Positions 10,522 to 28,408 of a stretch of 64,000 bases of DNA are shown here, one piece after another; position 1 is the stretch's first letter; each line of letters starts with the position of its first letter. The DNA is taken from positions 108,562 through 172,561 of the forward strand of contig JAXMKZ010000044.1 of assembly GCA_034370385.1 (NCBI GenBank). The letters run 5' to 3'. The translations under genes were made by a program, and so were the position numbers. This stretch comes from Coriobacteriia bacterium. GTDB lineage: Bacteria > Actinomycetota > Coriobacteriia > Anaerosomatales > PHET01. The notes beneath the pieces are model-generated. The model made no database searches. It saw only the letters and a list, made by a program, of their open reading frames with translations, and was not told where the DNA came from.

Positions 10522-10873
10522 GGGGGTGACTGGTTTCGACATGATAGTTCTGACGGAGGAAGCAGGCCGAGGTCTCCTCGCCTCGTTAAACAGGGGTAAA
10601 GACGCTCAAGCGTCGACAATAATTACGCCCTCGCTGCCTAAATAGAGCAGCGACGCCAACCGGTATGCGTCTCCGATACCGCGACGGCGCCATTCAGGAG
10701 ACTGCCGCGACGTACGTAGTCGGTATGACGCTCGCGAAAGACTGAACCGACTGGGCGCGGGCACGTGGGTCACCGCGTGTCGCCTGAGCCGAGAAACCAA
10801 GCGGTGACTGAGCCTGGAGATGCCTCCCGGAGGGCTATTGTGGACATGGGTTCGACTCCCATCACCTCCACCA
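10522..10873 (+). ncRNA. ssrA: tmRNA (transfer-messenger RNA)
   Basis: Rescues stalled ribosomes with SmpB. The 5' end (GGGGGTGACTGGTTTCGAC) pairs with the 3' end (TCACCTCC, then A and CCA at 10871-10873) to form the acceptor stem, and a T-arm with GGTTCGACTCC precedes it. The tag frame ends at TAA 10639-10641 and reads ...DNNYALAA. The resume codon is probably GTC (10612) or GAC (10615), because an in-frame stop (TAA 10597-10599) closes the frame further upstream. Length is about 352 bases with encoded CCA. Confidence 0.95.
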
Positions 10874-11033: not shown

Positions 11034-12686
11034 TTGAGATCACCTGATGACACGCGTCCTGAAGGACTGGATGCGGCTACCGCGTTCTTCGAGGGCGCGG
11101 GGGTACCGGTGGCGCACGTGTCTGCCTCCGGGCTCCTGACCGCATACAACCCGGCATGGTCGAGCCTGTTGGGCGTGCCGCCTTCTGAGCCGTGGGGCTG
11201 GCTCGACGCATTCGTCAGCCCGGGGAGGGAGCGGGTGCGCGGAGAGCTGTCTGCCGTATTCTCGCGAGGATTCTCTGAGGAGATCGAGGTCTCAGGACTC
11301 ACTGCGACGGGCGCGATCTGCCAGCTCGTCATCGCGGTCGCCCCCGTCCGCAAGGGTGTCGACGGGGCCTTGGTCATCATCTGGGACATCACCGAGCGCC
11401 GGCGTAACGAGGAGCGACTCGCGTTCATGGCGGGTCATGATGCCCTTACGGGTCTGGCAAACCGAAGGACCTTCGATGAGGGCCTCGGGCGAGCCGTCAG
11501 CAGGGCTCAGCGCGGAGCGATGGCACACCTGCTCGTGTTCGACATCGACAATCTCAAGACGCTCAACGATTCGCGGGGTCACCTTGCGGGCGATCAGGCG
11601 CTCGTCAACGCGGCGCTGCTCATTCGCCGGCACGTCCGTGCGATGGACCTGCCTGCGCGCATCGGCGGAGACGAGTTCGCAGTCCTACTTGAGGATTTAA
11701 CCGCAGACGAGGCTTTCGTCATCGCCGACCGAATCCGAGCCGCCGCGGCAGTTGACGGGCTCGTCACGGGGGGAAGCGAACTCGGCCTGGGATTCTCGTG
11801 TGGACTGGCGGCTATCGACGCCTCGGGCGACGCGCGCAGTGTCATCGAGCGCGCGGACCTGGCGCTGTATGCGGCAAAGTCAGCGGGCAGGAATCGCGTC
11901 GTGGTGTGGGCTCCCGAGGTCGGTGGACCGGGAGAGTCAGAGCGCATGGCCTCGTTGGTGCGCAGCGCGTTCGCCTCCGAGGGGTTCAGTCTCGTGTACC
12001 AGCCGGTGGTCTGTCTGGCTGACAAATCGGTGGCCTACTACGAGTCGCTCGTGCGCATGGAGGGCACGGGACGGCGTAAACACGTGCCCGGCGAGTTTCT
12101 GGCCGTCGTTGAGCGACAGGGGCTGCTGCCACGCTTGGCGCGCCAGGTCTTCGACTTGGCGCTGGCACAGCTCGCGGCCGTTCCGACTGCAAGCATCTCG
12201 ATCAACGTATCGGGCAGCGAGCTGGAAGACCGGGAGCTGCTGAGCGAGATCGCCGATGCGATCGATGCCTCCCGTTCTGCCGCAGGACGGCTGATCATCG
12301 AGATCGCCGAGGTGAACCTGCTGTCTCACCTCGCCGCCGGACGGCTCTGGATGCAGACGCTGGCTCCGCTGGGATGTCGGTTCGTTCTGGACGACTTCGG
12401 AACGGGGACCGGGGTGTTTGCCCTCCTTCGTGAGCCCTACATCGAGCAGGTCAAGTTGTCTCGCGCGGCCACCCGCGCACTCTCGGGCGAGCGGGGACAT
12501 CAGGCGTTCGTGCTGGCACTGCGCGAACTCATCGAGTCACAGGGAAAGACCGTCGTCGCAACCTATGTCGAGACCGCGCGGTTGTTGGGCGAGGCGCGTG
12601 ACGCGGGGTTCGAACTCGGGCAGGGATACGAGTTCGGCGAGCCCGAGGCGGACCTAGCCGTCCTGGTCGCGCGCATGGGGCGATGA
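11034..12686 (+). CDS. PAS-GGDEF-EAL protein; diguanylate cyclase with degenerate EAL domain
   Basis: A 550-residue soluble protein. An N-terminal PAS-like sensor (about 15-125) is followed by a GGDEF domain with intact signature at 211-215, substrate/metal residues DIDNLKTLND and an inhibitory I-site RAMD exactly five residues before GGDEF. It should therefore make c-di-GMP with product feedback. The C-terminal EAL domain keeps some ligands (E337 in ESLVR, NVS, DDFGTG, K474, QGY). It has lost the first Glu of the EGVE motif (TYVE, T510), reads KLS for KID, and has GTGV in the loop after DDFG. It is probably not a phosphodiesterase. TTG start at 11034 with AGGAGG seven bases upstream. It could feed the chemosensory operon downstream, which has a c-di-GMP-type N domain. 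Confidence 0.88.
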   Translation: MRSPDDTRPEGLDAATAFFEGAGVPVAHVSASGLLTAYNPAWSSLLGVPPSEPWGWLDAFVSPGRERVRGELSAVFSRGFSEEIEVSGLTATGAICQLVIAVAPVRKGVDGALVIIWDITERRRNEERLAFMAGHDALTGLANRRTFDEGLGRAVSRAQRGAMAHLLVFDIDNLKTLNDSRGHLAGDQALVNAALLIRRHVRAMDLPARIGGDEFAVLLEDLTADEAFVIADRIRAAAAVDGLVTGGSELGLGFSCGLAAIDASGDARSVIERADLALYAAKSAGRNRVVVWAPEVGGPGESERMASLVRSAFASEGFSLVYQPVVCLADKSVAYYESLVRMEGTGRRKHVPGEFLAVVERQGLLPRLARQVFDLALAQLAAVPTASISINVSGSELEDRELLSEIADAIDASRSAAGRLIIEIAEVNLLSHLAAGRLWMQTLAPLGCRFVLDDFGTGTGVFALLREPYIEQVKLSRAATRALSGERGHQAFVLALRELIESQGKTVVATYVETARLLGEARDAGFELGQGYEFGEPEADLAVLVARMGR

Positions 12687-12719: not shown

Positions 12720-13121
12720 ATGAACGTGCATCCTACTTTCGGCGAGCGCCGTTTCGGGCTCTCCTTCGACGAGTGGTCTGCGGCCGCAGGAGCGCTGGTC
12801 GACCTGCTTGACGCGGCTGCTGTACGTCGACAGACCGTCACCTATGGCCAGGCCGCCCGGGTCGCCTTCGGGGGCCGTTTCTCGGCTCGGTCCTCGGCGC
12901 TGATGGCGCTGCTCGCCGAGGTGGACGAGGCTGCACTGCGTGAGCGCGGCGTCATGGTCGCAGCTCTCGTGGTTCGTGCCGACACCGGTCGGCCGGGGGA
13001 GGGCTTCTACCGGTTCGCCGAGGCGATGGAGAACCAGCAGATCACCGACCGCGAGGAGTACTGGCGAGCCCAGGCGCAACGGGTGTGGAACGCCTACGAC
13101 GAAGAGAGGCGTATCCGATGA
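12720..13121 (+). CDS. Hypothetical protein, first gene of a coupled trio
   Basis: A 133-residue soluble protein I do not recognise. It is rich in Ala/Arg/Glu and mostly helical in appearance, with FYRFAEAMENQQITDREEYWRAQAQRVW near the C terminus. There are no Cys motifs or membrane segments. It has no ribosome site and a -10-like hexamer seven bases before ATG, so leaderless translation is likely. It overlaps the next gene by four bases (ATGA), which itself overlaps a NimA-like gene, so the three probably act together. Confidence 0.75.
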   Translation: MNVHPTFGERRFGLSFDEWSAAAGALVDLLDAAAVRRQTVTYGQAARVAFGGRFSARSSALMALLAEVDEAALRERGVMVAALVVRADTGRPGEGFYRFAEAMENQQITDREEYWRAQAQRVWNAYDEERRIR

Positions 13122-13972
13122 GCGATTCCGTGCTGTGGCGGGCGCTGTCCGGGGGCCCACCCATCACGGCCGTGGGCGTCACCTGGCTTTCCGATGAGGT
13201 TCGCGCCGTGCTGCCGGAAGGCGGCGGACCCGGCGGCCTTGCTGCCTTCGCGGTTGGCGCGGGTGCGCAGTTCGTCTTCGTGGATGCCGGCGCCGATCAC
13301 GCGCTGCAGGAAGCGCGCGCCCTGCGCCAGCACGCCATCGAGCCCGTGTGGGTTGTCGGCGGGCCGCTGGGTAGCGTCGCGGCGGAACTCGGCTGGGATC
13401 GAGTGATCAGGGCGTCTGCGAGCGGGTTCGCGTCGCTGCAGACCGAGATCGAGGAGGCCACGCGCACCGCCCTTGCCCGTGTCGCGGTTGGCCTGCGGGG
13501 CGGCCTGCGGGTCCACGTGATCGCCGATGACCTCGCGTCTGACGTCGGTTGGCTCGTGGACCCCGCCGCGGTATCGGTGCTCATGCCGCATTATCGGCGC
13601 CTGGCCGGGGCGGTGACGGGCGGCGGTGGGCGCGCCATCTTTCATTCGGACGGTGATCTGCGCACGGTCTGCCCGCAACTGGTCCGCTGCGGGTTCGTGG
13701 CCCTGCACGTGGGAGCGGTGCCGAGCGGGTCGCTTCGCGCGGTGCTCAGGGGGGTGCGCACCTGCGGACTGATTCCCGCCGGTGGGATCCCCGCGGCTGC
13801 TGCCGAGACGTCAGTCGAGGAGCTCGCGCGTCTCTGCGCCGAGGTCGCGCTCGAGGGTGCGTTCGTGTTGTGCGACGATGGGGGCCTCATGACGAGCGAA
13901 CAGCTGACGAGGGTCACGGAGGTCCAGCGCATGGTACGAACTCTGGCAGCCGAAGGGCCGGTGCCACGATGA
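13118..13972 (+). CDS. Divergent uroporphyrinogen decarboxylase-like (URO-D fold) protein
   Basis: A 284-residue protein. The segment IFHSDGDLRTVCPQLVRCGF (about 172-191) matches the HSDG strand-helix element of the URO-D/MtaA superfamily of TIM barrels, which covers haem-pathway decarboxylases and corrinoid methyltransferases. It is shorter than true HemE (about 340-355), and the Arg-rich N-terminal substrate loop of HemE is not seen, so it is more likely a methyltransferase-like or non-catalytic relative. No nearby corrinoid protein is found. ATG at 13118 overlaps the upstream stop. Confidence 0.65.
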   Translation: MSDSVLWRALSGGPPITAVGVTWLSDEVRAVLPEGGGPGGLAAFAVGAGAQFVFVDAGADHALQEARALRQHAIEPVWVVGGPLGSVAAELGWDRVIRASASGFASLQTEIEEATRTALARVAVGLRGGLRVHVIADDLASDVGWLVDPAAVSVLMPHYRRLAGAVTGGGGRAIFHSDGDLRTVCPQLVRCGFVALHVGAVPSGSLRAVLRGVRTCGLIPAGGIPAAAAETSVEELARLCAEVALEGAFVLCDDGGLMTSEQLTRVTEVQRMVRTLAAEGPVPR

Positions 13973-15184: not shown

Positions 15185-15367
15185 CGCCTTCCGTCGCTTG
15201 AGGACGATGATACCCGTCGGTGCCCTCAGCGATGCCTTTGAGCGGCGGGTTCGTCTTGGCGACGTGCAGGGCCTGCGTGCTAGGATGGGCGTGCGCGCGG
15301 TGGACCGCTCGGGGGATTGCGCGCGCCCGCATTTCAGGTCAGCCCCTTTTCAACGGAGGGTCGGTTA

Positions 15368-16114
15368 GTGGCGCTAGAGGGCAATCTCAAGGACTTCTCA
15401 CTCTCCGACATGTTCCGGTTGCTCCAGACCGGGTCGAAGACGGGCACTCTGCATATCGATCGCTCGTCCGCGCACGGGATCGTGTGCTTCCGAGATGGCC
15501 AGGTCTACCACGCCAACTCCACCGGCTCGTCGGAGGCGGTGGGCAAGCGTCTCGTCCGGGCGGGCGTCGTCTCTGAGAAACAGCTCCGTCAGGCCCAGGG
15601 GCTCATGAAGATCCAGAAGCGAGACAAGGCGGAGCGCAAGCTCGGTCAGATCCTCGTGGACGAAGGGTATCTTGAGGCGGAGGTTCTCGAGAGCTTCGTT
15701 CGTGACACCGTGTCCGATGCGCTGTTCGACCTCATGCGATGGGAGGACGGCGAACTGCGGTTTGAGCCTGACGAGACCGTCGCCGCCGCAGACCTCGGCA
15801 TCACCGTACCCGTCGACGGCGCCCTGACGGATGCGGCCAAGCGCCTCGAGCTGTGGAACCGCATCTGCGAGAAGATCCCCTCGCTCGACACGCGGTTCTC
15901 GATGTCGGGCACGCCGGGGGGCAAGTCCGGTGAGATCCACCTGAAGCCCCGTGAGTGGATGCTGCTGTGCTACCTACATGGCAGCCGCAGCGTGCGTGAG
16001 CTCGTGGAACTGACGGGCTACAGCGACTTCGACACGGCGAAGATCCTGTACGGCATGTATGCCGGAGGCTTGATCGAGAAGGTCGGACCCGCAGGCGAGC
16101 GGCTCGAGGACTGA
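15368..16114 (+). CDS. PATAN/DUF4388-domain protein, first gene of chemosensory operon
   Basis: A 248-residue cytoplasmic protein. The N-terminal PATAN (DUF4388) domain is clear: LEGNLKDFSLSDMFRLLQ, KTGTLHI, GIVCFRDGQVYHA. These domains are often fused to or encoded beside response regulators and PilZ proteins. A helical middle with repeated LGQILVDEGYLEAEVL follows, then a winged-helix-like C terminus (EWMLLCYLHGSRSVRELVELTG). Start GTG 15368 follows GGAGGG by nine bases; the upstream open frame is unsupported. It leads a nine-gene operon. A TAGGAT at 15281-15286 is a weak -10 candidate. Confidence 0.85.
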   Translation: MALEGNLKDFSLSDMFRLLQTGSKTGTLHIDRSSAHGIVCFRDGQVYHANSTGSSEAVGKRLVRAGVVSEKQLRQAQGLMKIQKRDKAERKLGQILVDEGYLEAEVLESFVRDTVSDALFDLMRWEDGELRFEPDETVAAADLGITVPVDGALTDAAKRLELWNRICEKIPSLDTRFSMSGTPGGKSGEIHLKPREWMLLCYLHGSRSVRELVELTGYSDFDTAKILYGMYAGGLIEKVGPAGERLED

Positions 16115-16119
16115 CGGCC

Positions 16120-17631
16120 ATGCCGAACGAGGAAGCGCTTCGCAAGGACCTCACGCCATCCGAGTTCCAGCTCTTCCGGGACTGGATCCACCAGCACTCA
16201 GGGATCTTTCTCGAGGAATCGAAGATGGACTCGTTGCGCATCTCGCTCGTGACGCGCGCGACCCGCTTCAGCTTCACCGACTACAGGGACTACTTCCGCC
16301 TCTTGTCGGCAGACGAGGACGAGTTCAAGGAGCTCATGAACCTCGTCACCATCAACGAGACGAGCTTCTTCCGTTTCCCCGCGCAGTTCGATGCGCTGCG
16401 AGACACGGTGATCCCCGAGATTCTTGACGCTCGGCCCATCAGTTCCTCGCGGCAGTTCCGGGTGTGGTCGGCCGGTTGTTCCACCGGCGAAGAGCCGTAC
16501 ACGTTGTCGATGACGCTGCTGGAATCGTGTCTGGAAGGGCTCGGCTACAACTTCGAGGTCGTGGGCACGGATGTCTCGACTCAAGCGTTGGAGCGCGCGC
16601 GCAAGGCGGTCTACCCGGCACGTACGCTGACGAGCCTGAACCAGTCGGTCCTGCAGCGCTGGTTCGAGCCCACCCCGGACGGCCAGCGCCCCGTCAAGCG
16701 TGTGCGAGACCGATGCTCCTTCCACTACCACAACCTCATCAAAGAACCGTACCCCCTCGCGCTCATGAGCAACTGGGACATCATCTTCTGTCGCAACGTG
16801 ACGATCTACTTCCGGGTCGAGTCCACACGTCGCGTGGTGGACCACTTCTTCGACGCACTCAATCCGGGCGGCTACCTCTTCATCGGCCACTCGGAGACAC
16901 TCACTTCGATCTCCGACCGGTTCGAGCCCGTCGAGATCGGTGGCGTCTTCTTGTACCGCAAGCCTGAGATCAAGCGGGCTCTGTCCTTCGATGACGTGGT
17001 CGCACGTCGTCAGGGGCGCACCGGTGTTCGTCGCGAGGATCCCGCGTCGCACCCGGCGGGTGTGCGCCCGGCGCGTGTCCGGCGCTACCAGCCCAAGCCG
17101 GAACCCGAGCCCGAGGAATCCGTCGCCGAGGTGCTCATCGCCGAAGCCAAGGCGAAGCTCGAACAGGCGAGCGCAGCTGATGCGTTGGTGCTTGCCACTC
17201 AGGCCATCCAAGCCGATCCGGAGAACACGGAGGCTCATCTCATGGCGGCGTTCGCGTATGCGGATCTCGGCAAGCTTGACGAGGCCATGGAACAGGCCGA
17301 GACGGTGCTTGAGACCTACCCGCTGACCGCAGGCGCCCGCTACATCAAAGGAATCATCTACCAGCAGCGCGGGCAGGTCGATCTTGCCATCGCTGAGTTC
17401 AAGCGGACCATCTACATCGACTCGGATTTCGTCTTGGCGCATTTCGCCATCGCGAATCTCCAGCGGCAGCAGGGCAACCTCGCGGATGCGTGCCGAGAGT
17501 ACGAGAACACCCTGAAGTCCCTCTATGCGAAACCCGAGGGGTCGTGGACGGCGTTTCTGGGCGGGTTCAGATCCGACCTTCTGGCACGGAGTTGTGAGCG
17601 CAGTCTGATAGAGTGTGGACGGAGCGGATGA
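16120..17631 (+). CDS. cheR: CheR-type MCP methyltransferase with C-terminal TPR repeats
   Basis: S-adenosylmethionine-dependent methyltransferase that adds methyl groups to chemoreceptor glutamates. The CheR N domain (residues 1-80, including TINETSFFR) is followed by the catalytic domain with VWSAGCSTGEEPY (SAM binding) and IIFCRNVTIYF. A charged Pro/Glu linker (about 320-345) leads to three or four TPR repeats (EAHLMAAFAYADLGKLDEAM, RYIKGIIYQQRGQVDLAI). TPR-bearing CheR proteins are typical of alternative, often type IV pilus-linked chemosensory systems such as Frz. It starts five bases after the PATAN gene. Confidence 0.92.
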   Translation: MPNEEALRKDLTPSEFQLFRDWIHQHSGIFLEESKMDSLRISLVTRATRFSFTDYRDYFRLLSADEDEFKELMNLVTINETSFFRFPAQFDALRDTVIPEILDARPISSSRQFRVWSAGCSTGEEPYTLSMTLLESCLEGLGYNFEVVGTDVSTQALERARKAVYPARTLTSLNQSVLQRWFEPTPDGQRPVKRVRDRCSFHYHNLIKEPYPLALMSNWDIIFCRNVTIYFRVESTRRVVDHFFDALNPGGYLFIGHSETLTSISDRFEPVEIGGVFLYRKPEIKRALSFDDVVARRQGRTGVRREDPASHPAGVRPARVRRYQPKPEPEPEESVAEVLIAEAKAKLEQASAADALVLATQAIQADPENTEAHLMAAFAYADLGKLDEAMEQAETVLETYPLTAGARYIKGIIYQQRGQVDLAIAEFKRTIYIDSDFVLAHFAIANLQRQQGNLADACREYENTLKSLYAKPEGSWTAFLGGFRSDLLARSCERSLIECGRSG

Positions 17632-17705: not shown

Positions 17706-18086
17706 ATGGCGACAGCGCGGATACTCGCGGTAGACGACAGCCCGACCATCCTCGAGATGATCAAGGCCATCCTCATCGCGGGCGGCTACGAGGTCATCAC
17801 GGCGGCGGACGGTGCGGAGGCGCTTGAGACCGCTCGCGCTGAGATGCCCGATCTCATCCTGCTCGACGTCATGCTTCCGAAGCTCGACGGGTATCGGGTG
17901 TGCCGACTGCTCAAGTTCGACCAGAAGTACAAGAGCATCCCGATCATCATGCTGACTGCCAAGACAGAGGAACAGGCGATGGCTACGGGCATTCGCACCG
18001 GTGCCAACCAGTACCTCACGAAGCCGATCGAGCCCGAGAGGCTGCTTTCTGCGGTCGCCGAGGAGCTCCAGCGGGCCCAAGGGTAG
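17706..18086 (+). CDS. Single-domain response regulator (CheY-like)
   Basis: A 126-residue receiver domain. The acidic pair (VDDS), the phospho-acceptor Asp in LLDVMLPKLDGY, the switch Thr (MLTAK) and Lys (YLTKPIEP) are all present, so it should be phosphorylated by the CheA downstream. Start ATG 17706 has GGGGAG upstream. With a CheA-REC fusion in the same operon, this may be the output regulator (or phosphate sink) for a motor or a PilB-like partner rather than a flagellar CheY. Confidence 0.9.
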   Translation: MATARILAVDDSPTILEMIKAILIAGGYEVITAADGAEALETARAEMPDLILLDVMLPKLDGYRVCRLLKFDQKYKSIPIIMLTAKTEEQAMATGIRTGANQYLTKPIEPERLLSAVAEELQRAQG

Positions 18087-18101: not shown

Positions 18102-19916
18102 GTGGCTGAGGCGACGTCCATCGCATGCAGGGTGCTTGAGGCAGCCGTCGGCGCCGGGATGCTTGCCGTTGACCAAGTCAGCGCGGCACGGCGTGAGGCT
18201 GGCAGCGATGCCGCAGCCGGCAAGTCCATGCTCGCCAAGGGGCTGGTGACCGAAACCCAGCTCGCATCTCTGCTGGAAGATCAACTCGGCTTCCCCCGAG
18301 TGGACCTGCAAAGCTATGCCCCGGATGACGAGGCCCTGGCTCTCATGCCTACGTCGGTGGCTCGTGCGCGAGCGATGCTTCCCCTGTTCGAGATCGAGGG
18401 GACCCTCACCGTCGCTATCGGCAAGCCACAAGACATCTTCGACCTCGATGACATCGGGACTGAGCTGGGCGTCGGTATGGACGCCGTGCTCGCCGATGCC
18501 TCCGACGTTCAGGCTGCGATTCTGCAGTACCTCGGAGCTGAACCTGTCTTCGTCGAGCCGGTGATCGAGCTGCCCGCCGAGGACCTTGAGATCCTGGCCT
18601 CTGACTTCTTCGAACTCGGCGATGACACGCCGGTGGTCATGGAGGTTCCTGCTGCGGACGCTCCGGACGAGACAGCTGCCTCCCAGACCGTCGAAGAGGT
18701 GGTCGAATCGGCCGCTCCGGTCGGTGCCGCCACGGTCGACCTTGACGTGCTCGCGGTTGCCGATGAGCGCAAGGTCGCCGTGCTCGTCACCGACATTCTT
18801 GAGCAGGCGGTGCAGCGTGGGGCCAGTCGGGTGCACCTGCTTCCCTACAAGACCGACTTCTTCTTGGTGTTCCGCGTCAAGGGACGGCTCGAGAAGGTCG
18901 CCAGCGCGCCACTGTCGATGCAGCAGCCTCTGATCGACGGGTTCAAGTCGTTTGCGAAGCTCGGCGGCGTGGCGGCGAACCGTCCGACGCTTGGCCGTAT
19001 GCATGCCGACATCGCCGGCAAGCCGGTGGTGCTCACCCTTTCGTCTGTGCCTACCGTGGCGGGTCAGCGCTTGGTGGTATCGATCACCGCCCAGAAGCCG
19101 CAGCCTCGTGATCTTGCTGAACTCGGGATGTCGGAGGCGGAGAGCCGCGCGCTCTATGCGATGGTGGAGCGTGGTCGCGGCATCCTGCTGGTCGCCGGAC
19201 CGGTGGGTGGCGGGCGTTCGACGTCCTACTACGCGCTCTTGCAGCATGCCGCGCAGGTCGGAAAGACCGTCTACTCCGTTGAGCGCTCCATCGATTACGA
19301 GATTCCTGCCGTGGCGCAGGTCCTGGTCAGCCCCGGTCAGCCGATCGGCGCGGCCAGCTACTTCGCCGCAGGTATCCGTCAGGACACCGACGTCATGGCG
19401 ATCGACTCGGTCCAGTCCGCTGAGGACGTGCACCTCGCCATCGAGGCGGCCGGCCTTGGCAAGCTCATCGTGACCACGTTCGCCGGCGGAGACATCGTGC
19501 ACGGTGTGAGGCGGATGCTCGACCTGGGAACCGAGCCGGTCTCGCTTGCGAGCGCGCTCACCTTGGGTGTGGGGCAGCGCGTGGTGCGCACCAACTGCCC
19601 GAACTGCTCGGTCGAGGAGAAGAGTCCGCTCGCCGCGAAGATCCCGGGGGCCGAACCCGGTTTGGTGACCAAGCGGGGAACGGGCTGCCCGAACTGCGGC
19701 AAGACCGGTTTCGCGGGTGCTACCATCGTCTACGAGGTGCTGCCGTTCACCGAACCGGTGCGCGCGGTCATCGCGCGTGGGGGGTCCGCCGAGGCGATCG
19801 AGTCAGCCGCGCGTGCTGCCGGCATGCGACCGATGATCGCATCGGGACTCGCGAAGGTGCGCGACGGGCTCGTGAGTCCCGAGGAGCTCGACCGAGTCAT
19901 GAGGTTCGCACAGTGA
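18102..19916 (+). CDS. PilB/GspE-like protein with degenerate ATPase motifs
   Basis: A 604-residue relative of type IV pilus/type II secretion ATPases. An N-terminal GspE-N/MshEN domain (1-145, with LGFPRVDLQSYAPDDEALAL) is followed by an acidic linker and the ATPase fold. Walker A reads GPVGGGRS with Arg at 372 in place of the essential Lys. The Walker B stretch usually reading VGEIRD is here IDSVQS (D435, S436), so the catalytic Glu is gone, and the His box is absent. The zinc tetrad is retained (C499, C502, C529, C532). It therefore looks like a folded non-hydrolysing paralogue. It sits between cheY-like and cheW genes, so it may be a scaffold or output partner. GTG start with GGAAGG upstream. 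Confidence 0.85.
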   Translation: MAEATSIACRVLEAAVGAGMLAVDQVSAARREAGSDAAAGKSMLAKGLVTETQLASLLEDQLGFPRVDLQSYAPDDEALALMPTSVARARAMLPLFEIEGTLTVAIGKPQDIFDLDDIGTELGVGMDAVLADASDVQAAILQYLGAEPVFVEPVIELPAEDLEILASDFFELGDDTPVVMEVPAADAPDETAASQTVEEVVESAAPVGAATVDLDVLAVADERKVAVLVTDILEQAVQRGASRVHLLPYKTDFFLVFRVKGRLEKVASAPLSMQQPLIDGFKSFAKLGGVAANRPTLGRMHADIAGKPVVLTLSSVPTVAGQRLVVSITAQKPQPRDLAELGMSEAESRALYAMVERGRGILLVAGPVGGGRSTSYYALLQHAAQVGKTVYSVERSIDYEIPAVAQVLVSPGQPIGAASYFAAGIRQDTDVMAIDSVQSAEDVHLAIEAAGLGKLIVTTFAGGDIVHGVRRMLDLGTEPVSLASALTLGVGQRVVRTNCPNCSVEEKSPLAAKIPGAEPGLVTKRGTGCPNCGKTGFAGATIVYEVLPFTEPVRAVIARGGSAEAIESAARAAGMRPMIASGLAKVRDGLVSPEELDRVMRFAQ

Positions 19917-19923
19917 GGACGAG

Positions 19924-20415
19924 ATGACCGACGAGACTGCCATCGCACCCGAGGGTGCGCCCGAGGAAGACGCGACCTGTCTGTACGTGGACAGGGTGAT
20001 CACGTTCTATCTGGACTCCCAGCGCTATGCGCTTCCCATCGATCGTGTCCAGGAGATCCAGCAGATCGTCGCGTTCTCTGAGGTCCCAAGCGGTGGTTCG
20101 GGTGTCGTGGGCATGGTCAACCTTCGCGGTCACGTCATTCCGGCTGTGGACTTGAGACAGGTCGTAGGACTCGGCCCCAAGGAGTACGATCTAGAGACAC
20201 CGATGATCATCTGCCGAATCAAGGGTCAGCTTGTCGCGCTGGTTGTCGATGAAGTGCAAGACGTGCTCGAGTTGCCCGACGGATGTCTTCAGGCGGCTCC
20301 CCCGATGCACTCGCTCTCATCGAAGATGCTCGGCGTGGCCCGCATGAGTGATGGACTCATCTACCTGTTCGATCTTGACCCCTTGCTCGCATCGACGCTG
20401 TCAGGGGGGTGGTGA
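19924..20415 (+). CDS. cheW: CheW-like coupling protein (first copy)
   Basis: A 163-residue CheW domain that joins receptor to CheA at the membrane array. Core elements FYLDSQRYALPIDRVQEIQ, GVVGMVNLRGHVIPAVDLR and ALVVDEVQDVLELP are present. It has a 20-residue acidic N-terminal extension. GAGGACG precedes the ATG. It overlaps the second cheW by about four to seven bases. Two CheW proteins in one operon suggest different receptor or CheA contacts. Confidence 0.93.
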   Translation: MTDETAIAPEGAPEEDATCLYVDRVITFYLDSQRYALPIDRVQEIQQIVAFSEVPSGGSGVVGMVNLRGHVIPAVDLRQVVGLGPKEYDLETPMIICRIKGQLVALVVDEVQDVLELPDGCLQAAPPMHSLSSKMLGVARMSDGLIYLFDLDPLLASTLSGGW

Positions 20416-20975
20416 CGGTGGCGAATACCGAGATACACCGGGCGGGCTCTCTCGCCGAGACCGCCGAGGAGATCCTCAATCGGCGCGCGGAGTCTCTCGC
20501 ACGGGAGACGATCGAGGAAGAGGCGGCACACCGCCTTGCCCTCCTTCTTTTTCGAATCGCTGAGGAGTGGTACTGCGTGCGCGTTTCGGACGTGCGCGAG
20601 ATCTTCCAGGAGTACGACATCACGACCGTTCCCGGTGTCCCGGATTACATCCTCGGAGTGGTCAACGTGCGCGGTGAGATTCTCTCGATCACCGACCCCG
20701 CGACGCTCATGCACATCGGTGCCATCTCGCTCGACGGAGTAGAACAGCCTCCGGCGATCGTCATCGTCAACGGAGAGGTCGCGACGGCGATCGTGGTCGA
20801 CGAGATCGGCGATATAGCCGAGATTCCGGACGACTCTGTCGAGCCACCGATCAGCATCATCGATAGGGCGCAGGCAGCGTTCATCTCGGGCTCGGTCCAC
20901 GTCGGCGACAACATGGTCGGCTTGATCAACATCGAACGAATGCTCGAGCCGGTAATCACGGGCGGACGTCACTAG
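20412..20975 (+). CDS. cheW: CheW-like coupling protein (second copy)
   Basis: A CheW-domain protein of about 187 residues with a 45-residue charged helical N-terminal extension before the domain (LALLLFRIAEEWYCVRVSDV, YILGVVNVRGEILSITDP, AIVVDEIGDIAEIPDD). GTG codons at 20409, 20412 and 20418 are all possible starts. I give 20412 because it forms GTGA with the upstream stop. It is distinct enough from the first copy to be an old paralogue, not a recent duplicate. Confidence 0.9.
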   Translation: MTVANTEIHRAGSLAETAEEILNRRAESLARETIEEEAAHRLALLLFRIAEEWYCVRVSDVREIFQEYDITTVPGVPDYILGVVNVRGEILSITDPATLMHIGAISLDGVEQPPAIVIVNGEVATAIVVDEIGDIAEIPDDSVEPPISIIDRAQAAFISGSVHVGDNMVGLINIERMLEPVITGGRH

Positions 20976-21002: not shown

Positions 21003-22229
21003 ATGGGTATCTGGAAGCGCATCAACAGTCAACTGCTCTACAAGGTGACGTTCTTCGTCGTCGTGCTGCAGGTGCTGTTCCTTCTGTGCCAGTTCGCGCT
21101 GATGGTCTCGCTGTTCGCTACTGACCTGAGGGCCGAGACCAGGGTACAGACGGGCGTCGGCATCATCTTCGGTGTATCCATTCTGCTGACGATCGTGTTC
21201 GGCGTGATCAACTACCTCCTCGTCAAGCGAACCGTGGGTCCGCTCACCGAGGTGTCCGAGTCGGTTCGTGTCGCGTGCCAGGGCGAGATCGGGCGCAAGG
21301 TGACCGTGAGGAGCGACGACGAGATCGGTACACTCGCCGCGAGTTACAACCAGATGCTGGACCTGATCGTGTATCTCATTCGCCAGACCCAGGAGTCCAG
21401 CCGCCGTCTCCAGCAGTCGGCCAACGACATCCTCTCAGCGACCGAACAGCAGGCGTCCGGTTCCGCTGAACAAGCCGCATCCATCAGTGAGACCACGGCG
21501 ACCATGGAGGAGCTGGCTAGCACGTATCGACAGATCGCGGAGAACGCCGATCATGTCGTGAACATGGCCGAGGCATCGCTCAGCAACGCCGAATCAGGTC
21601 AGCAGGCGGTCATGAACACGCTCACATCGATGGAGACCATCAAGTCGCGTACCCAGCAGAGCGCCAACAAGATTCTTGCGCTCGGCGAGCGCAGCCAGCA
21701 GATCGGACAGGTCCTCACGATCATCAACTCGATCGCGGACCAGACCAAGATCCTCGCCCTCAACGCTGCCATCGAGGCAGCCCGCGCGGGAGAAGCCGGC
21801 AAAGGCTTCAGCGTGGTCGCCATCGAGATCCGCAAGCTCGCGGAGTCTGTCGTGGAATCGACCAGCGAGATATCGACGATCATGACCGAGATTCAGGCCG
21901 CGGCCAACGAACTCGTGATGTCGACGGAGCAGGAGCTCAAGCAGGTGCAGTCGGGTGTAGACCTCGCTCACGTGACCGGCGAATCGCTCGAGCAGATTCT
22001 GGAGATGGTTGAGCAGACGACCGTCGCCGCCAAGGAGATCAGCGCGGCTACCCAGCAGCAGAAGTCAGCGACCGATCAGGTCGTCAAGGCGATGCGGGAG
22101 GTCGCCTCCGTGGCTCAGCAGACGGCCGCCGGTTCGCGCCAGGTGGCGGGTTCGGCAGAGTCGCTCTCGGCGATGGCCCGAGAGTCCAGCCAGGTGGGCT
22201 CGGCCTTCACCATCGTCGATGGCGCGTAG
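21003..22229 (+). CDS. Methyl-accepting chemotaxis protein with minimal external domain
   Basis: A chemoreceptor of 408 residues. Two membrane helices (about 15-38 and 56-80) are separated by only about 15-20 residues, so there is almost no periplasmic sensor. A HAMP domain follows ([14 protein letters not shown]) and then the signalling coiled coil, whose tip is canonical ([26 protein letters not shown]). Gln-rich helices carry possible methylation sites. Such a receptor must sense a membrane or internal cue, or respond to a partner such as the PATAN or PilB-like proteins. Confidence 0.93.
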
Positions 22230-22265: not shown

Positions 22266-24644
22266 ATGGTCGAGTTCGACCGCAGCGCGTTCATAGGGAA
22301 GTTCCAAGAAGAGGCGCAGGAACTACTCCAGCGCCTCAACGAGGGCGTCATCACGCTCGAGGGTGACCCTGAGAACCGCGAGCTCATAGACCAGATGATG
22401 CGCGATGCCCACACGATCAAGGGCTCTTCGCGGATGGTCGGCCTCATCGAGATATCAGACGTCGCACACTGGCTCGAAGACATCATGGTCAAGGTCCGCG
22501 ACGGTGACATGAAATACACGCCGCAGATGAGCGACTACTTCTTCGAGGCGCTCGACGCCATCGTCTACCTTGCCGACAACAAGGGCGTCAACGAGGGCGA
22601 TGTCCTCGACCTTGATGGCCTGAAATCTAAACTGGCTGCACTCGCAGACGGCGGCACGGATGCCGCGAAGGCTGCTGAAGCCGAAACGGCAGAAGCGGCA
22701 GCGAATGCCGCAGCTGAACCGGCTCCCAAGAAACGCAGTCGCAAGAAGGTCGCTGAACCGGTGCAGGAACTGGATGACGAGTTGCCGGACGATGATGACG
22801 ACGATGCCCATGAGGCTGTTGAAACGGAGCGAGTCACTCAGGACGCGGCGCCTAAGAGCCGTTCATCCGCGGGCAAGAACCTCTCGCCGGACGAACTCAA
22901 GACCAAGGTGCAGGCGACCATACGAATCAAGACCGCTCAGGTGGACTCGCTACTGAATCTCATAAGCGAGGTCGTGATCGGACAGATCAAGGCCGAACAG
23001 CGTGCCAACGAGATGCGGGTCATCCAGTCGGGTGCCACCGAGTCCTGGCAGGCGTGGGCACGAATCAGGTCCATGCTCGCGGCGCTCGGAGAAAGCGGGG
23101 CAGTCGACGGGCTGGCGGAGGACGTGAATCTGCTAGACGGCAGCCTCGCCAATAGCCAGCGGGCGCTCTCGGAGTTCGTCAAGGTCTATTCCGAGGATGT
23201 CAGCAGGACCTCGCTTGTGGTCACCGATCTACAGGAACAGGGCATGCGCCTGCGCATGCTTCCGGCCAACACGATCTTCCAGACGTTCCCGCGCGCCGTT
23301 CGGGACCTCGCCAAGCAGTTCAAGAAGGAGATCGACTTTCAGATTGAGGGCGGCGAGACCGAACTCGATAAGAAGGTGCTCGAAGAGATCAACGACCCCC
23401 TCGTGCACATAATGCGCAACTGCGTGGATCACGGCGTCGAGGATCCTGAGACCAGAAAGAAGCTGGGCAAACCGGCCGTGGGTCACGTCAAGCTGGAGGC
23501 TCGCCAAGAGGGTGACCGGATCATCATCGAGATCACCGATGACGGCGCCGGTATCGACCCCGACAAGGTACGGGAGTCCGCGGTTCGGAAGGGCTACCTC
23601 ACCGAAGCCGAAGCGAGCGCGATGTCGGACCGCGAGGCGAAGTACCTGATCTTCGAAGCGGGCTTCTCGACTGCGGCGATCATCACCGAGATCTCCGGGC
23701 GCGGAGTCGGCATGGATGTGGTGCGCGAGTTCGTCGTGGAGAAGCTGAAGGGGTCGCTCGACGTTGAGTCCGAGGTCGGCAAGGGCACCACGTTCAAGCT
23801 GACGATACCGCTCACCCTCGCCATCATCAGAGCTCTCATGATCCGAGTGGGCGAGAAGGTCTTCGCGATGCCTACGGGCTCCATCGACGAGACCCTCAGG
23901 GTCGATCCGGCCGAGATCATCAAGGTCGAAGGCCGCGAGGTCATTCGGAGGCAGCGCAGGACTATTCCGCTCGTGCGTCTGTCAGAGATACTCGGCGTGC
24001 CCGTCGCGCCCGCTGAAGGCATGAAACAGCCGATCGTCACCATCAGCTATTCAGGGCACCGGATGGGCTTCATGGTCGACGGCTTCGTCGGCGAGCAGCA
24101 GATCGTCATCAAGCCGCTGGGGAGCCACCTCAAGAAGATCGACAACGTCGCCGGCGTGACGATTCTGGGTGCGGGCGAGGTTGTGCCGATTCTCAACATT
24201 CCTGACCTGATGACCAATGCGCGAACCCGTTCGGGTCACCGGGCTGGTCCGACACACAGGGACGAGAGTGAGGGTCCGCGCTCGGTTCTCATCTGCGAGG
24301 ACTCCTTCACGACCCGTGAGCTCGAACGTTCGATCTTCGAGGCAGCCGGCTACCAGGTGGAGACGGCGGTGGACGGTGCACAGGGCTACGCGAAGCTGCA
24401 CGAGGGGCTCAAGGTCGATGCGGTGGTCACCGATGTTCAGATGCCGAACATGACGGGCTTCGAGCTGACCAAGGCCATCAAGTCGGACCCATCCCTCATG
24501 TCGATCCCGGTCATCATCGTCACCTCGCTCGAGCGTGATGAGGAGAAGGCCGAAGGCATCGAGGCAGGCGCCGATGCCTACATCACCAAGTCGGTCTTCA
24601 ATCAAGACACCCTGCTCGAAACGGTCGAACGCCTCATACGCTGA
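22266..24644 (+). CDS. cheA: Hybrid chemotaxis kinase CheA with C-terminal receiver
   Basis: A histidine kinase of 792 residues. The Hpt domain carries H49 in AHTIKGSSRM. An acidic linker (about 125-200, with a run of Asp) leads to the dimerisation domain and an intact ATPase (RNCVDHG, DDGAGIDP, GRGVGMDVV, GKGTTFKL). A CheW-like regulatory domain and a receiver domain with acceptor D723 (VVTDVQMPN) complete it. The P2 CheY-binding domain appears to be replaced by the acidic linker. CheA-REC fusions occur in FrzE and in type IV pilus chemosensory systems. No residue appears missing. Confidence 0.94.
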   Translation: MVEFDRSAFIGKFQEEAQELLQRLNEGVITLEGDPENRELIDQMMRDAHTIKGSSRMVGLIEISDVAHWLEDIMVKVRDGDMKYTPQMSDYFFEALDAIVYLADNKGVNEGDVLDLDGLKSKLAALADGGTDAAKAAEAETAEAAANAAAEPAPKKRSRKKVAEPVQELDDELPDDDDDDAHEAVETERVTQDAAPKSRSSAGKNLSPDELKTKVQATIRIKTAQVDSLLNLISEVVIGQIKAEQRANEMRVIQSGATESWQAWARIRSMLAALGESGAVDGLAEDVNLLDGSLANSQRALSEFVKVYSEDVSRTSLVVTDLQEQGMRLRMLPANTIFQTFPRAVRDLAKQFKKEIDFQIEGGETELDKKVLEEINDPLVHIMRNCVDHGVEDPETRKKLGKPAVGHVKLEARQEGDRIIIEITDDGAGIDPDKVRESAVRKGYLTEAEASAMSDREAKYLIFEAGFSTAAIITEISGRGVGMDVVREFVVEKLKGSLDVESEVGKGTTFKLTIPLTLAIIRALMIRVGEKVFAMPTGSIDETLRVDPAEIIKVEGREVIRRQRRTIPLVRLSEILGVPVAPAEGMKQPIVTISYSGHRMGFMVDGFVGEQQIVIKPLGSHLKKIDNVAGVTILGAGEVVPILNIPDLMTNARTRSGHRAGPTHRDESEGPRSVLICEDSFTTRELERSIFEAAGYQVETAVDGAQGYAKLHEGLKVDAVVTDVQMPNMTGFELTKAIKSDPSLMSIPVIIVTSLERDEEKAEGIEAGADAYITKSVFNQDTLLETVERLIR

Positions 24645-24656
24645 TAGGGGATGCGC

Positions 24657-25700
24657 GTGCCCGAAAAGAAGAGGATTCGAGTCGTCATCGCCGACGATTC
24701 ACTCGTCGCACGAGAGATGCTTGCAACCATTCTGGGCAGCGAACCCGACATCGAGGTCGTCGGTCAGGCGAAGGACGGCCACGAAGCGGTCGAGATGGTC
24801 GAGCGACTGCGCCCGGACTTGGTCACCATGGACATCCACATGCCGAAACTCGACGGCCTGCGCGCCACTGAGAAGATCATGGCGTTCACGCCCACTCCGA
24901 TTCTGGTGGTCTCATCCTCCGTTCACGGTGAGGGAATGGGCCGCGCGTTCGATGCGCTCAACCTCGGAGCCCTGGAAGTGATCAAGAAGCCCGAGCCGCG
25001 TGATTGGGCGGATCTGGACCGCATCGGCCGAGAGGTCATCAGGAAGGTCCGGGTGCTCTCCAATGTGCGCGTGATCACCCATATTCGCGGGCGACACGGA
25101 CCGGCTTCAGCGGGTCGGCTGCGGCAGGTCGGGTCAAGCTCGCGCACGCTGGTGGCTATCGGTTCATCGACCGGAGGTCCGTCCGCTCTGCTCGAGGTGC
25201 TTGGCAGGCTGCCCCAGGAGTTCCCCGCGCCCATCGTGGTCGCGCAGCACATCGCGGACGGGTTCGTTCCCGGGTTGGTGGGTTGGCTCGATTCAGGCTG
25301 CAGTATTCGTGTGGTCGCCGCGGAGTCAGGCCAGCGGATCGAGCCGGGCATCGCGTACTTCGCCCCGACGGGGTCGAACATGGCGCTCGATGGCGGCACC
25401 GTGAGGTTCCAGCCGCCGGGACACGGCCAACTCTATATTCCGAGCGCTGACACGCTGTTCGATTCGGTGTCGGTGAGCCACGGCAACCGGGCGGTGGGCG
25501 TGCTGTTGACGGGTATGGGCGCCGATGGAGCCGAGGGGCTCAAGCTCATGCGCAACAAGGGCGCTGCCACGATCGCTCAGGACGAAGAGACGTGCACCGT
25601 GTTCGGCATGCCGCGAGCGGCCATCGAGATCGGCGCCGCCGAGAAGGTCCTCCCGATCACCAAGATCGCCGAGGCTGTCGAAGCGCTCATCGCGGGTTGA
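24657..25700 (+). CDS. cheB: Chemotaxis methylesterase/response regulator CheB
   Basis: Removes receptor methyl groups when phosphorylated. The receiver (residues 1-125, acceptor D59 in TMDIHMPKLDG) is followed by the esterase domain with Ser in GSSTGGPS, His in AQHIADGF and Asp in MGADGAEGL. I chose GTG 24657, with AGGGG six bases upstream. The ATG at 24651 would directly abut that site. This is the last gene of the chemosensory run; no cheC, cheD, cheX or cheZ follows. Confidence 0.93.
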   Translation: MPEKKRIRVVIADDSLVAREMLATILGSEPDIEVVGQAKDGHEAVEMVERLRPDLVTMDIHMPKLDGLRATEKIMAFTPTPILVVSSSVHGEGMGRAFDALNLGALEVIKKPEPRDWADLDRIGREVIRKVRVLSNVRVITHIRGRHGPASAGRLRQVGSSSRTLVAIGSSTGGPSALLEVLGRLPQEFPAPIVVAQHIADGFVPGLVGWLDSGCSIRVVAAESGQRIEPGIAYFAPTGSNMALDGGTVRFQPPGHGQLYIPSADTLFDSVSVSHGNRAVGVLLTGMGADGAEGLKLMRNKGAATIAQDEETCTVFGMPRAAIEIGAAEKVLPITKIAEAVEALIAG

Positions 25701-25913: not shown

Positions 25914-27521
25914 ATGGCGCTCGGAGTCTTCCTGTCCCGCTGCGGCGGGCGAATCGAATCGGCGCTCGACATTCAGGCCGCACTTGCGGGAGTCGCTGGT
26001 CGTGCATCGGTCGTGCGCGTGCTCGATGACTTCTTCGATGCCGGCGTGGCCGAAGGCATCTCACGCGACATCGAAGAGCACCGGCTGGATGCCGTGGTTC
26101 TCGCGGGTCACTCTGAGGAGCACTTCGCCAAGAGCCTCTCGGCGAGCCACCTGCGGGACGCCATCGTCGCAGCAGGCGTGAACGCGAATCGAGTGGCGGC
26201 GGCCAACATCTTGGAGCAGTGCGCTCTGGCACATCCCGATGATGTCGCCGGCGCTACCGCGAAGGCGCGTGCCATCATCGACGTCGCCGCCACCCGGGCC
26301 GAGATGGCCGAAGCGGTCGAGGGTGAGATGATCCGGCCACGCAGCTCGGTACTGATCCTCGGCGTCACCGCTGAGGCGGTTGTGGCCGCCCAACGTCTCC
26401 TGCGTCTGGGATACAGCGTTGTTCTCGCAGATCGCGAGGACGGGTCCAAGAGGGCGGGACGGGCCTTCGAAATGCACGCCACGACGTCATACGTCTTGGA
26501 CCATCCCCAGGCCAGAGTCATCGATTCGGCGCGTCTGCAGGACGGGGACGGCTATCTCGGCGACTTTCGCATCGTCCTCGAGTCCGCCGACGGCCTCGAG
26601 ACCTATCGGGTGGGCGGGATCCTTCTTGCTCGCCCCGACCACACGGAGTGGGTCAGCGAACTGAGGCAGCACTTCCGCGTCGACGTGGACGATGCCGGGT
26701 TCGCCCGCTCACTGGATCCGGCGATGCACCCGGCCGAGACGGTCGACCCCGGCATCATGGTCATGCCTTTGAGGCGCAGTGATGCGCAACAGGTCGACAA
26801 GGTCGCAGCCGCCGATGCCGCTGCGATGGCCCTCGTCCTCAAGCTTTCGCACGACACCGTCGTGCACTACCGTGACACCTCAGCGGTCGACACGGCGCTG
26901 TGCGGAGGGTGCGCCACCTGCGTACGCACGTGTGCCTTCGGCGCCTGCTCCATCAGCGACGACGGCTTCAGTGACGTGGACATCCGTCGCTGTGTCGGCT
27001 GTGGCAAGTGCGTCGTGAGTTGTCCGGTGGGTGCTCGCGATATCGTCAGCTCGCCGCACGACTATCTGCTGGGGGCGGTCCGCGACCTGGCGCGTGCGAA
27101 GGTCGAAGGCGACAAGGTCATCGGTTTTCTGTGCGGCGGCTGCGGGTACCCTGCGGCCGACAGCGCGGCGAGCACCGTGGCCGGGCGCGGCGTCGGCTAT
27201 CCTTCATCGTTCCTGCCGCTGCGCATCCCGTGCGGCGGGCGCCTGGACGCACTCTACGTGCTGGAGGCCTTCAAGGTCGGCTTTGAAGGCGTCTGCGTGT
27301 ATCGATGTCGCGAGGGGCATTGCCACAACCTCGTGGGCAACCTCGACATGGACCGGCGGGTGAACCTGCTTCGGACCGTCTTGCGCTCGCGCAACATCGA
27401 CGACGCGCGTCTGCGCATCATCGATATCTCGCCCTTCGAAGGGGAGCACTTCATCCACACACTTGAAGAGGTGTACTCCACCATCGGCGGACTCGCCAAC
27501 GGGAAAGGAGGTCCGCTGTGA
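25914..27521 (+). CDS. HdrA-like/MvhD fusion, hydrogenase electron-transfer subunit without FAD motif
   Basis: A 535-residue protein. The start (GVFLSRCGGRIE, and ANILEQC near residue 100, compare NIREQC) matches the N-terminal domain of heterodisulfide reductase HdrA. The next domain reads VLILGVTAEA where HdrA has the FAD-binding GGGIAG, and the HdrA 4Fe-4S insert is missing, so FAD is unlikely to bind there. Two 4Fe-4S clusters follow (CGGCATCVRTC, CVGCGKCVVSC). The C terminus is an MvhD/FlpD domain with conserved Cys (FLCGGCGYP, RIPCGG, YRCREGHCHNLVGN). It would pass electrons between the hydrogenase and an unknown partner in the cytoplasm. It overlaps the small subunit gene by four bases; AAGGGGTGA precedes the ATG. 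Confidence 0.85.
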   Translation: MALGVFLSRCGGRIESALDIQAALAGVAGRASVVRVLDDFFDAGVAEGISRDIEEHRLDAVVLAGHSEEHFAKSLSASHLRDAIVAAGVNANRVAAANILEQCALAHPDDVAGATAKARAIIDVAATRAEMAEAVEGEMIRPRSSVLILGVTAEAVVAAQRLLRLGYSVVLADREDGSKRAGRAFEMHATTSYVLDHPQARVIDSARLQDGDGYLGDFRIVLESADGLETYRVGGILLARPDHTEWVSELRQHFRVDVDDAGFARSLDPAMHPAETVDPGIMVMPLRRSDAQQVDKVAAADAAAMALVLKLSHDTVVHYRDTSAVDTALCGGCATCVRTCAFGACSISDDGFSDVDIRRCVGCGKCVVSCPVGARDIVSSPHDYLLGAVRDLARAKVEGDKVIGFLCGGCGYPAADSAASTVAGRGVGYPSSFLPLRIPCGGRLDALYVLEAFKVGFEGVCVYRCREGHCHNLVGNLDMDRRVNLLRTVLRSRNIDDARLRIIDISPFEGEHFIHTLEEVYSTIGGLANGKGGPL

Positions 27522-28408
27522 GCAAGCCCACTTTGGCCACGGTGTCATTGGGCGGTTGCGAGGGGTGCCACGTCTCGCTCCTCGATGCCCACGAGGGCCT
27601 TCTCGATCTGCTCGAAGCGGCCGATCTCGTGCACTCGCCGTTCAGTGGCGATGAGGAGATTCCCGCCCACGTCGATGTGGTGATGGTCGAAGGTGCCATC
27701 ACCACCGAGGAGGACCTCCGCCGACTCCACGCAGCTCGAGCGTCCGCGACGACCCTCGTGGCTGTCGGATCGTGTGCGGTGCTCGGCGGCATCGGCGGTC
27801 TGAGGAACCTGAGCCCCGTGGCGGAGGTGAAGGCACGTGCCTTCGGAGACCACGTGACCAAGTCCGAGCGCCTTCCGCGTCTGAGGCGTCTTGTTCAGCC
27901 ACTGAGCGACTTCGTCGAGATCGACATCTCCGTACCCGGTTGCGCACCCGAGACAGGGCTCATCGTTGATGCGCTCGTCGCGGCGGTGAGCGGAAACGAG
28001 TTCTCGTTCGGAGTTCGCAACCTGTGTGACGAGTGTCATCGCGAGAAGCGTGCGCTGCTGGAGCACTCCTCGGAGTTCGTGTCCGACGACGTGCTCGCGC
28101 TGATGGAGCTCGATGAGATCGACCCGAAGCGCTGCTTCCTCGAACAGGGCCTCATCTGTATGGGCCCCATGACACGAGAGGGCTGTGGCGCGAAGTGCAC
28201 CGCAGCCAACGTGCCGTGCCGCGGATGCATGGGCCCGAGCCGGCTCGACTACGAGCAGGGCGCCAAGACCATCGATGCACTGGCTGCAGTCCTTCCGGCC
28301 GGAGGAATCATGTACATGGACGATCTGATAGGTACGGGGTACCGGTTCTCGATGCCGGTGTCGGTGTTCCCTGGTGCCCTTGACCACGAAGGAGGCGACG
28401 ATGACTGA
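27518..28408 (+). CDS. [NiFe]-hydrogenase small subunit (MvhG-like)
   Basis: Iron-sulfur subunit of a cytoplasmic group 3-type [NiFe]-hydrogenase, 296 residues, no Tat signal. The proximal cluster ligands are GGCEGCH, GSCAVLGG and PGCAP. Further Cys (LCDEC, CFLEQGLICMG, GCGAKC, CRGC) should hold two more 4Fe-4S clusters, as in MvhG/FrhG. It is flanked by the HdrA-MvhD fusion and the large subunit, with short overlaps at both ends. The 3c-like assignment follows from the MvhD neighbour and is inferred. Confidence 0.92.
   Translation: MSKPTLATVSLGGCEGCHVSLLDAHEGLLDLLEAADLVHSPFSGDEEIPAHVDVVMVEGAITTEEDLRRLHAARASATTLVAVGSCAVLGGIGGLRNLSPVAEVKARAFGDHVTKSERLPRLRRLVQPLSDFVEIDISVPGCAPETGLIVDALVAAVSGNEFSFGVRNLCDECHREKRALLEHSSEFVSDDVLALMELDEIDPKRCFLEQGLICMGPMTREGCGAKCTAANVPCRGCMGPSRLDYEQGAKTIDALAAVLPAGGIMYMDDLIGTGYRFSMPVSVFPGALDHEGGDDD

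Follow-up and report, generated by a model that had tools for sequence, protein, structure and literature searches.

It has long been asked how a chemosensory system acts on the motor of the type IV pilus, and the locus described here raises the question anew: what would a PilB-like protein that lacks the residues for catalysis be doing inside a chemosensory operon? The gene lies on the forward strand at 18102-19916 of the window, by which we mean the whole 64,000-nucleotide stretch of Coriobacteriia DNA that was analysed, and it is an uninterrupted open reading frame with a GTG start that encodes 604 amino acids. The protein matches Pfam T2SSE (PF00437) over residues 221-598 with 210 bits against a cut-off of 24.9, which places it in that superfamily, and Pfam MshEN (PF05157) over residues 62-147 with 53 bits. 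A degenerate MshEN domain (approximately residues 1-145) is followed by a low-confidence linker (147-207), an N2 domain (approximately 208-340), an ATPase-fold core (approximately 341-497) and a CxxC/CxxC zinc tetrad (C499/C502/C529/C532) that is invariant among orthologues. The nearest sequences with solved structures are Geobacter PilB and Vibrio EpsE/GspE, and an AlphaFold2 model (mean pLDDT 83.7) resembles PilB crystal structures with TM-scores of up to 0.85, normalised to target length. The best structural matches are to Geobacter PilB (5tsh/5zfr), with which the protein shares domain order, fold and zinc tetrad. Thus, the full PilB/GspE-like architecture proposed in the preliminary description, which had called for a structure model aligned with PilB and GspE, is supported both by the domain matches and by the model. 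On the PilB equivalog model, TIGR02538, the protein scores 269.9 bits, under the curated cut-off of 675.65.

Unlike PilB, the protein has no Walker A lysine, no Walker B glutamate and no His box, and its gene sits in a che operon devoid of pil genes. The degenerate Walker A region (19185-19223, forward strand; residues 362-374, LLVAGPVGGGRST) contains GPVGGGRS in place of the consensus GxxGxGK[ST], with R372 instead of lysine. The degenerate Walker B region (19392-19418, forward strand; residues 431-439, VMAIDSVQS) reads AIDSVQS where canonical PilBs have VGEIRD, with D435 for glycine and S436 for glutamate, and the HTND of the His box has become AGGD. These readings, together with the intact zinc tetrad, agree with those first made from the letters of the sequence. 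The protein retains 44 of the 90 positions that are invariant in canonical PilB. Several arginines invariant in canonical PilB, R256, R312 and R327 of the N2 domain, are lost, and so the formation of a normal mixed ring with PilB could be prevented. The absence of its catalytic residues rules out the 604-residue protein as a PilB motor, and its ATPase activity has probably been lost. For these reasons we refer to it as a pseudo-ATPase.

Of the 69 genomes available for the order, the Anaerosomatales-like Coriobacteriia, 58 have an orthologue, one in each, and these are spread over 16 families. When 298 genomes from across the class were searched at E <= 1e-60, the same number, 58, were positive, and every one of them falls inside the order. 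The alignment reveals the Walker A lysine in 0 of 58 orthologues and the Walker B glutamate (GE[IV]RD) likewise in 0 of 58, whereas in the same family of genomes the canonical PilBs retain both. Residue 372 is R in 30 orthologues, A in 17, S in 7, G in 3 and C in 1, and residue 436 is G, S, P, A or T. Thus, of the expectation that both R372 and the loss of the glutamate would be conserved, the absence of lysine and glutamate stands in all 58, but R372 itself does not, being replaced in 28. At residue 461 of the His box, the orthologues have P, S, A, V or T, compared to histidine in 11/11 canonical PilBs, and the Asp box residue D395 has been lost from the family along with the His box. The ATPase-fold core is nonetheless the most conserved part of the protein and contains residues that are invariant specifically in this family (D435, S392, Y376 and T429). 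The aspartate at 435 is present in all 55 complete orthologues, whereas all canonical PilBs have glycine there.

Conservation of D435 brings up the possibility that nucleotide continues to drive the protein as an enzyme, through an unusual chemistry in which D435 restores the Walker B aspartate (hhhhD) and the P-loop binds nucleotide without its lysine. The P-loop residues P367, G371 and S/T373 are retained among the orthologues, and the outgroup relatives described below display a standard hhhhDE together with GKT. Against such chemistry, residues 372 and 436 drift through the substitutions listed above and both the Asp box and the His box are gone, and we consider it improbable. With P367, G371 and S373 conserved, the P-loop may still accommodate some ligand.

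The opposite possibility, that the gene is a relic of a former motor gene in decay, draws on the intact and intermediate relatives that we describe below, one of them intact in the same operon context, and on the orthologue of genome G014, which is split over two frames (L090:5566-7751) by an apparent frameshift that is perhaps a sequencing or assembly error. It is contradicted by the retention of the gene across the order, in 58 genomes and 16 families, by the conserved ATPase-fold core with its family-specific residues, and by low dN/dS values. Relative to three relatives, these values are about 0.08, 0.14 and 0.23 by the NG86 method, with dS greater than 1 and thus near saturation, and the NG86 values for cheA and cheB are similar. 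The low dN/dS indicates purifying selection despite the missing catalytic residues. We therefore reject the decaying relic, to which we attach next to no likelihood.

The pseudo-ATPase gene is the fourth of nine on one strand, in the order DUF4388, cheR(TPR), cheY, pseudo-ATPase, cheW, cheW, MCP, hybrid cheA and cheB. The first gene (15317-16114, all coordinates here being on the forward strand) has a true start that is possibly further in, and its product, whose DUF4388 domain we take to be a PATAN domain, gives a weak, sub-cut-off match to an MshE-related c-di-GMP-binding model. It is followed by genes for a CheR methyltransferase with TPR repeats (16120-17631; Pfam) and a CheY-like single-domain response regulator (17706-18086, with its ATG at 17706), the latter being the most conserved operon member at 76-94% identity across the order. 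Downstream lie two genes for CheW (19924-20415 and 20409-20975; Pfam), followed by those for an MCP with two TM segments, a HAMP domain and a signalling domain (21003-22229), a hybrid CheA with Hpt, HATPase_c, CheW and C-terminal receiver domains but no Pfam match to a P2 domain (22266-24644), and a CheB methylesterase (24651-25700). The pseudo-ATPase gene is separated from its neighbours by 15 bp upstream and 7 bp downstream, in keeping with the tight placement between cheY and the two cheW genes noted at the outset. Sequence motifs and operon placement thus agree on a PilB paralogue without catalytic residues inside a chemosensory operon. The nine-gene order is identical at all 57 other loci as far as the contigs reach.

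Several other features were observed around the operon. Directly after it (25914-29813) are a gene for a FlpD/ferredoxin-domain (HdrA/MvhD-like) protein and the genes for the small and large [NiFe] hydrogenase subunits; part of this block is near the che operon in several relatives, and in G521, a genome of another class, homologues of the block lie directly upstream of the che operon (L204:3-2864). Upstream, a conserved protein without a Pfam match is encoded at 13085-13972, with homologues of 27-38% identity near the che operon in many relatives, and a tmRNA gene with the tag VDNNYALAA is present at 10522-10873.

No FliG was found in the 69 genomes of the order, with the flagellum being judged by FliG_C alone, which makes a flagellum a very unlikely target, and we reject flagellar chemotaxis as the role of the operon. 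As the preliminary description had supposed, real PilBs are encoded elsewhere: the window's genome has three canonical PilBs, two on contig C16 and one on contig C22, and canonical PilBs are also present in all searched genomes carrying the che-linked copy. A complete che operon, a hybrid CheA, pilus motors and no flagellum, the features by which we recognize a type IV pilus chemosensory system, are therefore found together here. On contig C16 (L143:1898-10250), a DUF4388 gene and a roadblock (Robl_LC7) gene lie between the two canonical pilB genes, and in another class several genomes also have DUF4388 genes after pilB. The same genome has a second che cluster on contig C51 (L142:3453-15852) encoding CheR, MCP, CheW, CheY, CheB, a P2-type CheA and CheD; next comes a GAF-GGDEF gene, and approximately 5 kb downstream of the cheA of this cluster lies a PilT-like gene.

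The pseudo-ATPase gene is missing from 11 of the 69 genomes, some of which are incomplete assemblies, and MAGs may miss genes. A search with the operon's CheA revealed no close orthologue of the cognate cheA in 10 of these 11. The exception, G031, has a CheA fragment of 77% identity at a contig end, and a gap in the assembly may therefore account for the absence of the gene there. In G033, which is 99% complete, neither the pseudo-ATPase gene nor the cognate cheA is present, and canonical PilBs are kept in both G033 and G051, the two gene-negative genomes that were searched for T2SSE. Since the cognate cheA is lost together with the pseudo-ATPase gene while canonical PilBs persist, the distribution of the gene matches that of the che operon and not that of the pilus.

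The MshEN match suggested a further possibility, that the domain binds c-di-GMP and the pseudo-ATPase links this messenger to CheA/CheY, and a PAS-GGDEF-EAL protein is encoded upstream of the operon at 11034-12686. MshEN domains bind c-di-GMP through two copies of a 24-residue motif, RLGxx(L/V/I)(L/V/I)xxG(L/V/I)(L/V/I)xxxxLxxxLxxQ, and substitutions at several of these positions are reported to have cost the GspE of Xcc17 its binding (Wang et al., PMC5013675), a precedent that counts against binding here. The orthologues do not conform to the motifs, their key glycine, leucine and glutamine residues being replaced, in a divergent region whose alignment is somewhat uncertain: Gly11 has become leucine or isoleucine, Leu10 is valine in 52/55, Gln32 is never glutamine (alanine in 47/55) and Gln61 is glutamate in 45/55. 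In contrast, canonical PilBs of the same family mostly keep Arg9-Leu10-Gly11 (9-10 of 11) and Gln61 (11/11). With most residues of both motifs lost, c-di-GMP binding is unlikely, and we regard the c-di-GMP sensor put forward in the preliminary description as very improbable and reject it.

Relatives outside the order came from screening 396 genomes across the phylum with a profile, followed up in the 36 genomes of one other class, in which five further che-linked PilBs were found (G511, G577, G521, G463 and G617). The G511 protein is intact, with GPTGSGKS, GEIRD and HTND and 85 of the 90 canonical invariant positions. The other four keep the lysine, within GKT, and the glutamate, within DEIRS, DEIKE, DELDS and DEADS, and have lost the His box; they have the Gly-to-Asp change at 435 in common with the pseudo-ATPases of the order. 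In another genome, G299, an intact PilB gene adjoins cheY and other recognizable che genes are absent from its 11-kb stretch. Phyla beyond Actinomycetota were covered solely by a nucleotide-pattern scan of genome contigs, which reaches close relatives and gave matches in the order plus one weak match in Sphingomonas. It had been reasoned beforehand that homologues with intact Walker motifs in the same operon context would make this copy a merely decayed one. Such homologues do exist in the other class, one fully intact and four with lysine and glutamate, but within the order the loss is fixed in 58 of 58 orthologues under purifying selection, and we therefore regard the pseudo-ATPases as an old specialized family and not one decayed copy.

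The CheYs closest to that of the operon in the phylum sample are those adjoining che-linked PilBs. In the PilB tree, all CheY-linked PilBs are on one side of a branch with support of 100/98 before G299 was added and 99 with it, and the degenerate che-linked PilBs group together (100/100). From these sequences we infer an order of events: a pilB gene would first have become linked to a cheY gene, and the pair would then have belonged to, or been taken up into, a complete che operon; the His box and Gly435 would have been lost next, and the lysine and glutamate last, and only among the Anaerosomatales-like Coriobacteriia. In the Anaerosomatales lineage, the copy would thus have lost its ATP-binding and hydrolysis residues, while the fold, the zinc tetrad and the place in the operon were retained. 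Drawn from a tree without a root, in which long branches lead to the degenerate copies, this sequence of steps is put forward as an inference.

Known systems offer parallels for a PilB-type protein in chemosensory signalling. The P. aeruginosa Pil-Chp system is a chemosensory cluster that acts on type IV pili and has a hybrid CheA and CheY-like regulators, features that the present operon shares, and to our knowledge its cluster has no PilB-like gene. Pil-Chp is covered in a review (PMC12632253). In Synechocystis, a PATAN-CheY regulator has been reported to bind PilB1 (PixE-PilB1), and it has been proposed that signals of the phototaxis or chemotaxis type pass to the pilus by way of contact with its extension motor (reviewed in PMC7690835). 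Similarly, the present operon combines genes for DUF4388, CheY and a PilB-like protein, although the Synechocystis target is an active PilB1 and the present protein is a dead PilB. We know of no dead PilB in the cyanobacterial PATAN-CheY systems. In Myxococcus xanthus, PilB sends a signal to the Dif MCP/CheW/CheA pathway from an upstream position; the Walker A mutant K327A of this PilB, a poor ATP binder, gives a dominant gain-of-function signal, and the authors proposed nucleotide-free PilB as the active signalling form (PMC5544727). Both cases involve a PilB-type protein defective in Walker A and linked, here by the position of its gene, to an MCP, CheW and CheA. In M. xanthus, one active PilB does both jobs and K327A was made in the laboratory, whereas here the che operon encodes its own paralogue, which is dead by nature and distinct from the true PilBs encoded elsewhere in the genome.

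Does the pseudo-ATPase act at the input or at the output of the array? The two TM segments of the MCP are separated by a very short loop, likewise in the orthologues examined, indicating that it has no extracytoplasmic ligand-binding domain and therefore that its input comes from elsewhere. This keeps an input role in consideration: the dead PilB would register the condition of the pilus machine, or some other cue from the cytoplasm, and feed it to MCP/CheW/CheA in place of the missing sensor, as the upstream position of M. xanthus PilB might lead one to expect (PMC5544727). However, the most persistent partner of these PilBs is CheY, an output protein, G299 has its cheY-pilB pair without other recognizable che genes nearby, and MCPs can receive signals by other routes, such that an input role is possible but unlikely. 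Since no linkage is more widespread than that of cheY and pilB, we favor an output role in which the protein is a CheY partner acting on the pilus machine. Gene adjacency suggests contact with CheY, to which the pseudo-ATPase most likely still docks, perhaps along with the DUF4388 protein. Fixed in a nucleotide-free-like shape, it would pass the CheA/CheY signal on to the genuine pilus apparatus; it could do so, for instance, by rivalling canonical PilB for the PilC platform or by assembling there together with it. Taken as a whole, the reading of this PilB-derived paralogue as a dedicated non-motor part of a type IV pilus-type chemosensory system that relays the CheA/CheY signal is one that we judge about equally apt to be right or wrong. 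Only tentatively would we go on to propose that the order-wide family is a permanently nucleotide-free array subunit that either replaces the receptor's sensor domain or is the sole output target of CheY.

In the open-licence literature, no account of a PilB-like pseudo-ATPase encoded among che genes came to light, nor anything on the periplasmic domain of DifA, and a survey of Geobacter chemotaxis does not mention PilB. The family described here adds a clear set of pseudo-enzymes to a superfamily known mainly as engines: a protein of motor descent has been released from motor duty and has become a constant neighbour of CheY. It seems that evolution made a signalling component out of an engine, and the relatives form a stepwise series that runs from the intact G511 protein, through four that keep lysine and glutamate without the His box, to the fully dead proteins of the order. 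The idea that nucleotide-free PilB is itself a signal came from one laboratory mutant of M. xanthus, and these natural proteins make it testable by comparison. If the proposal is true, the order-wide pseudo-motor would be the natural counterpart of that Walker A mutant.
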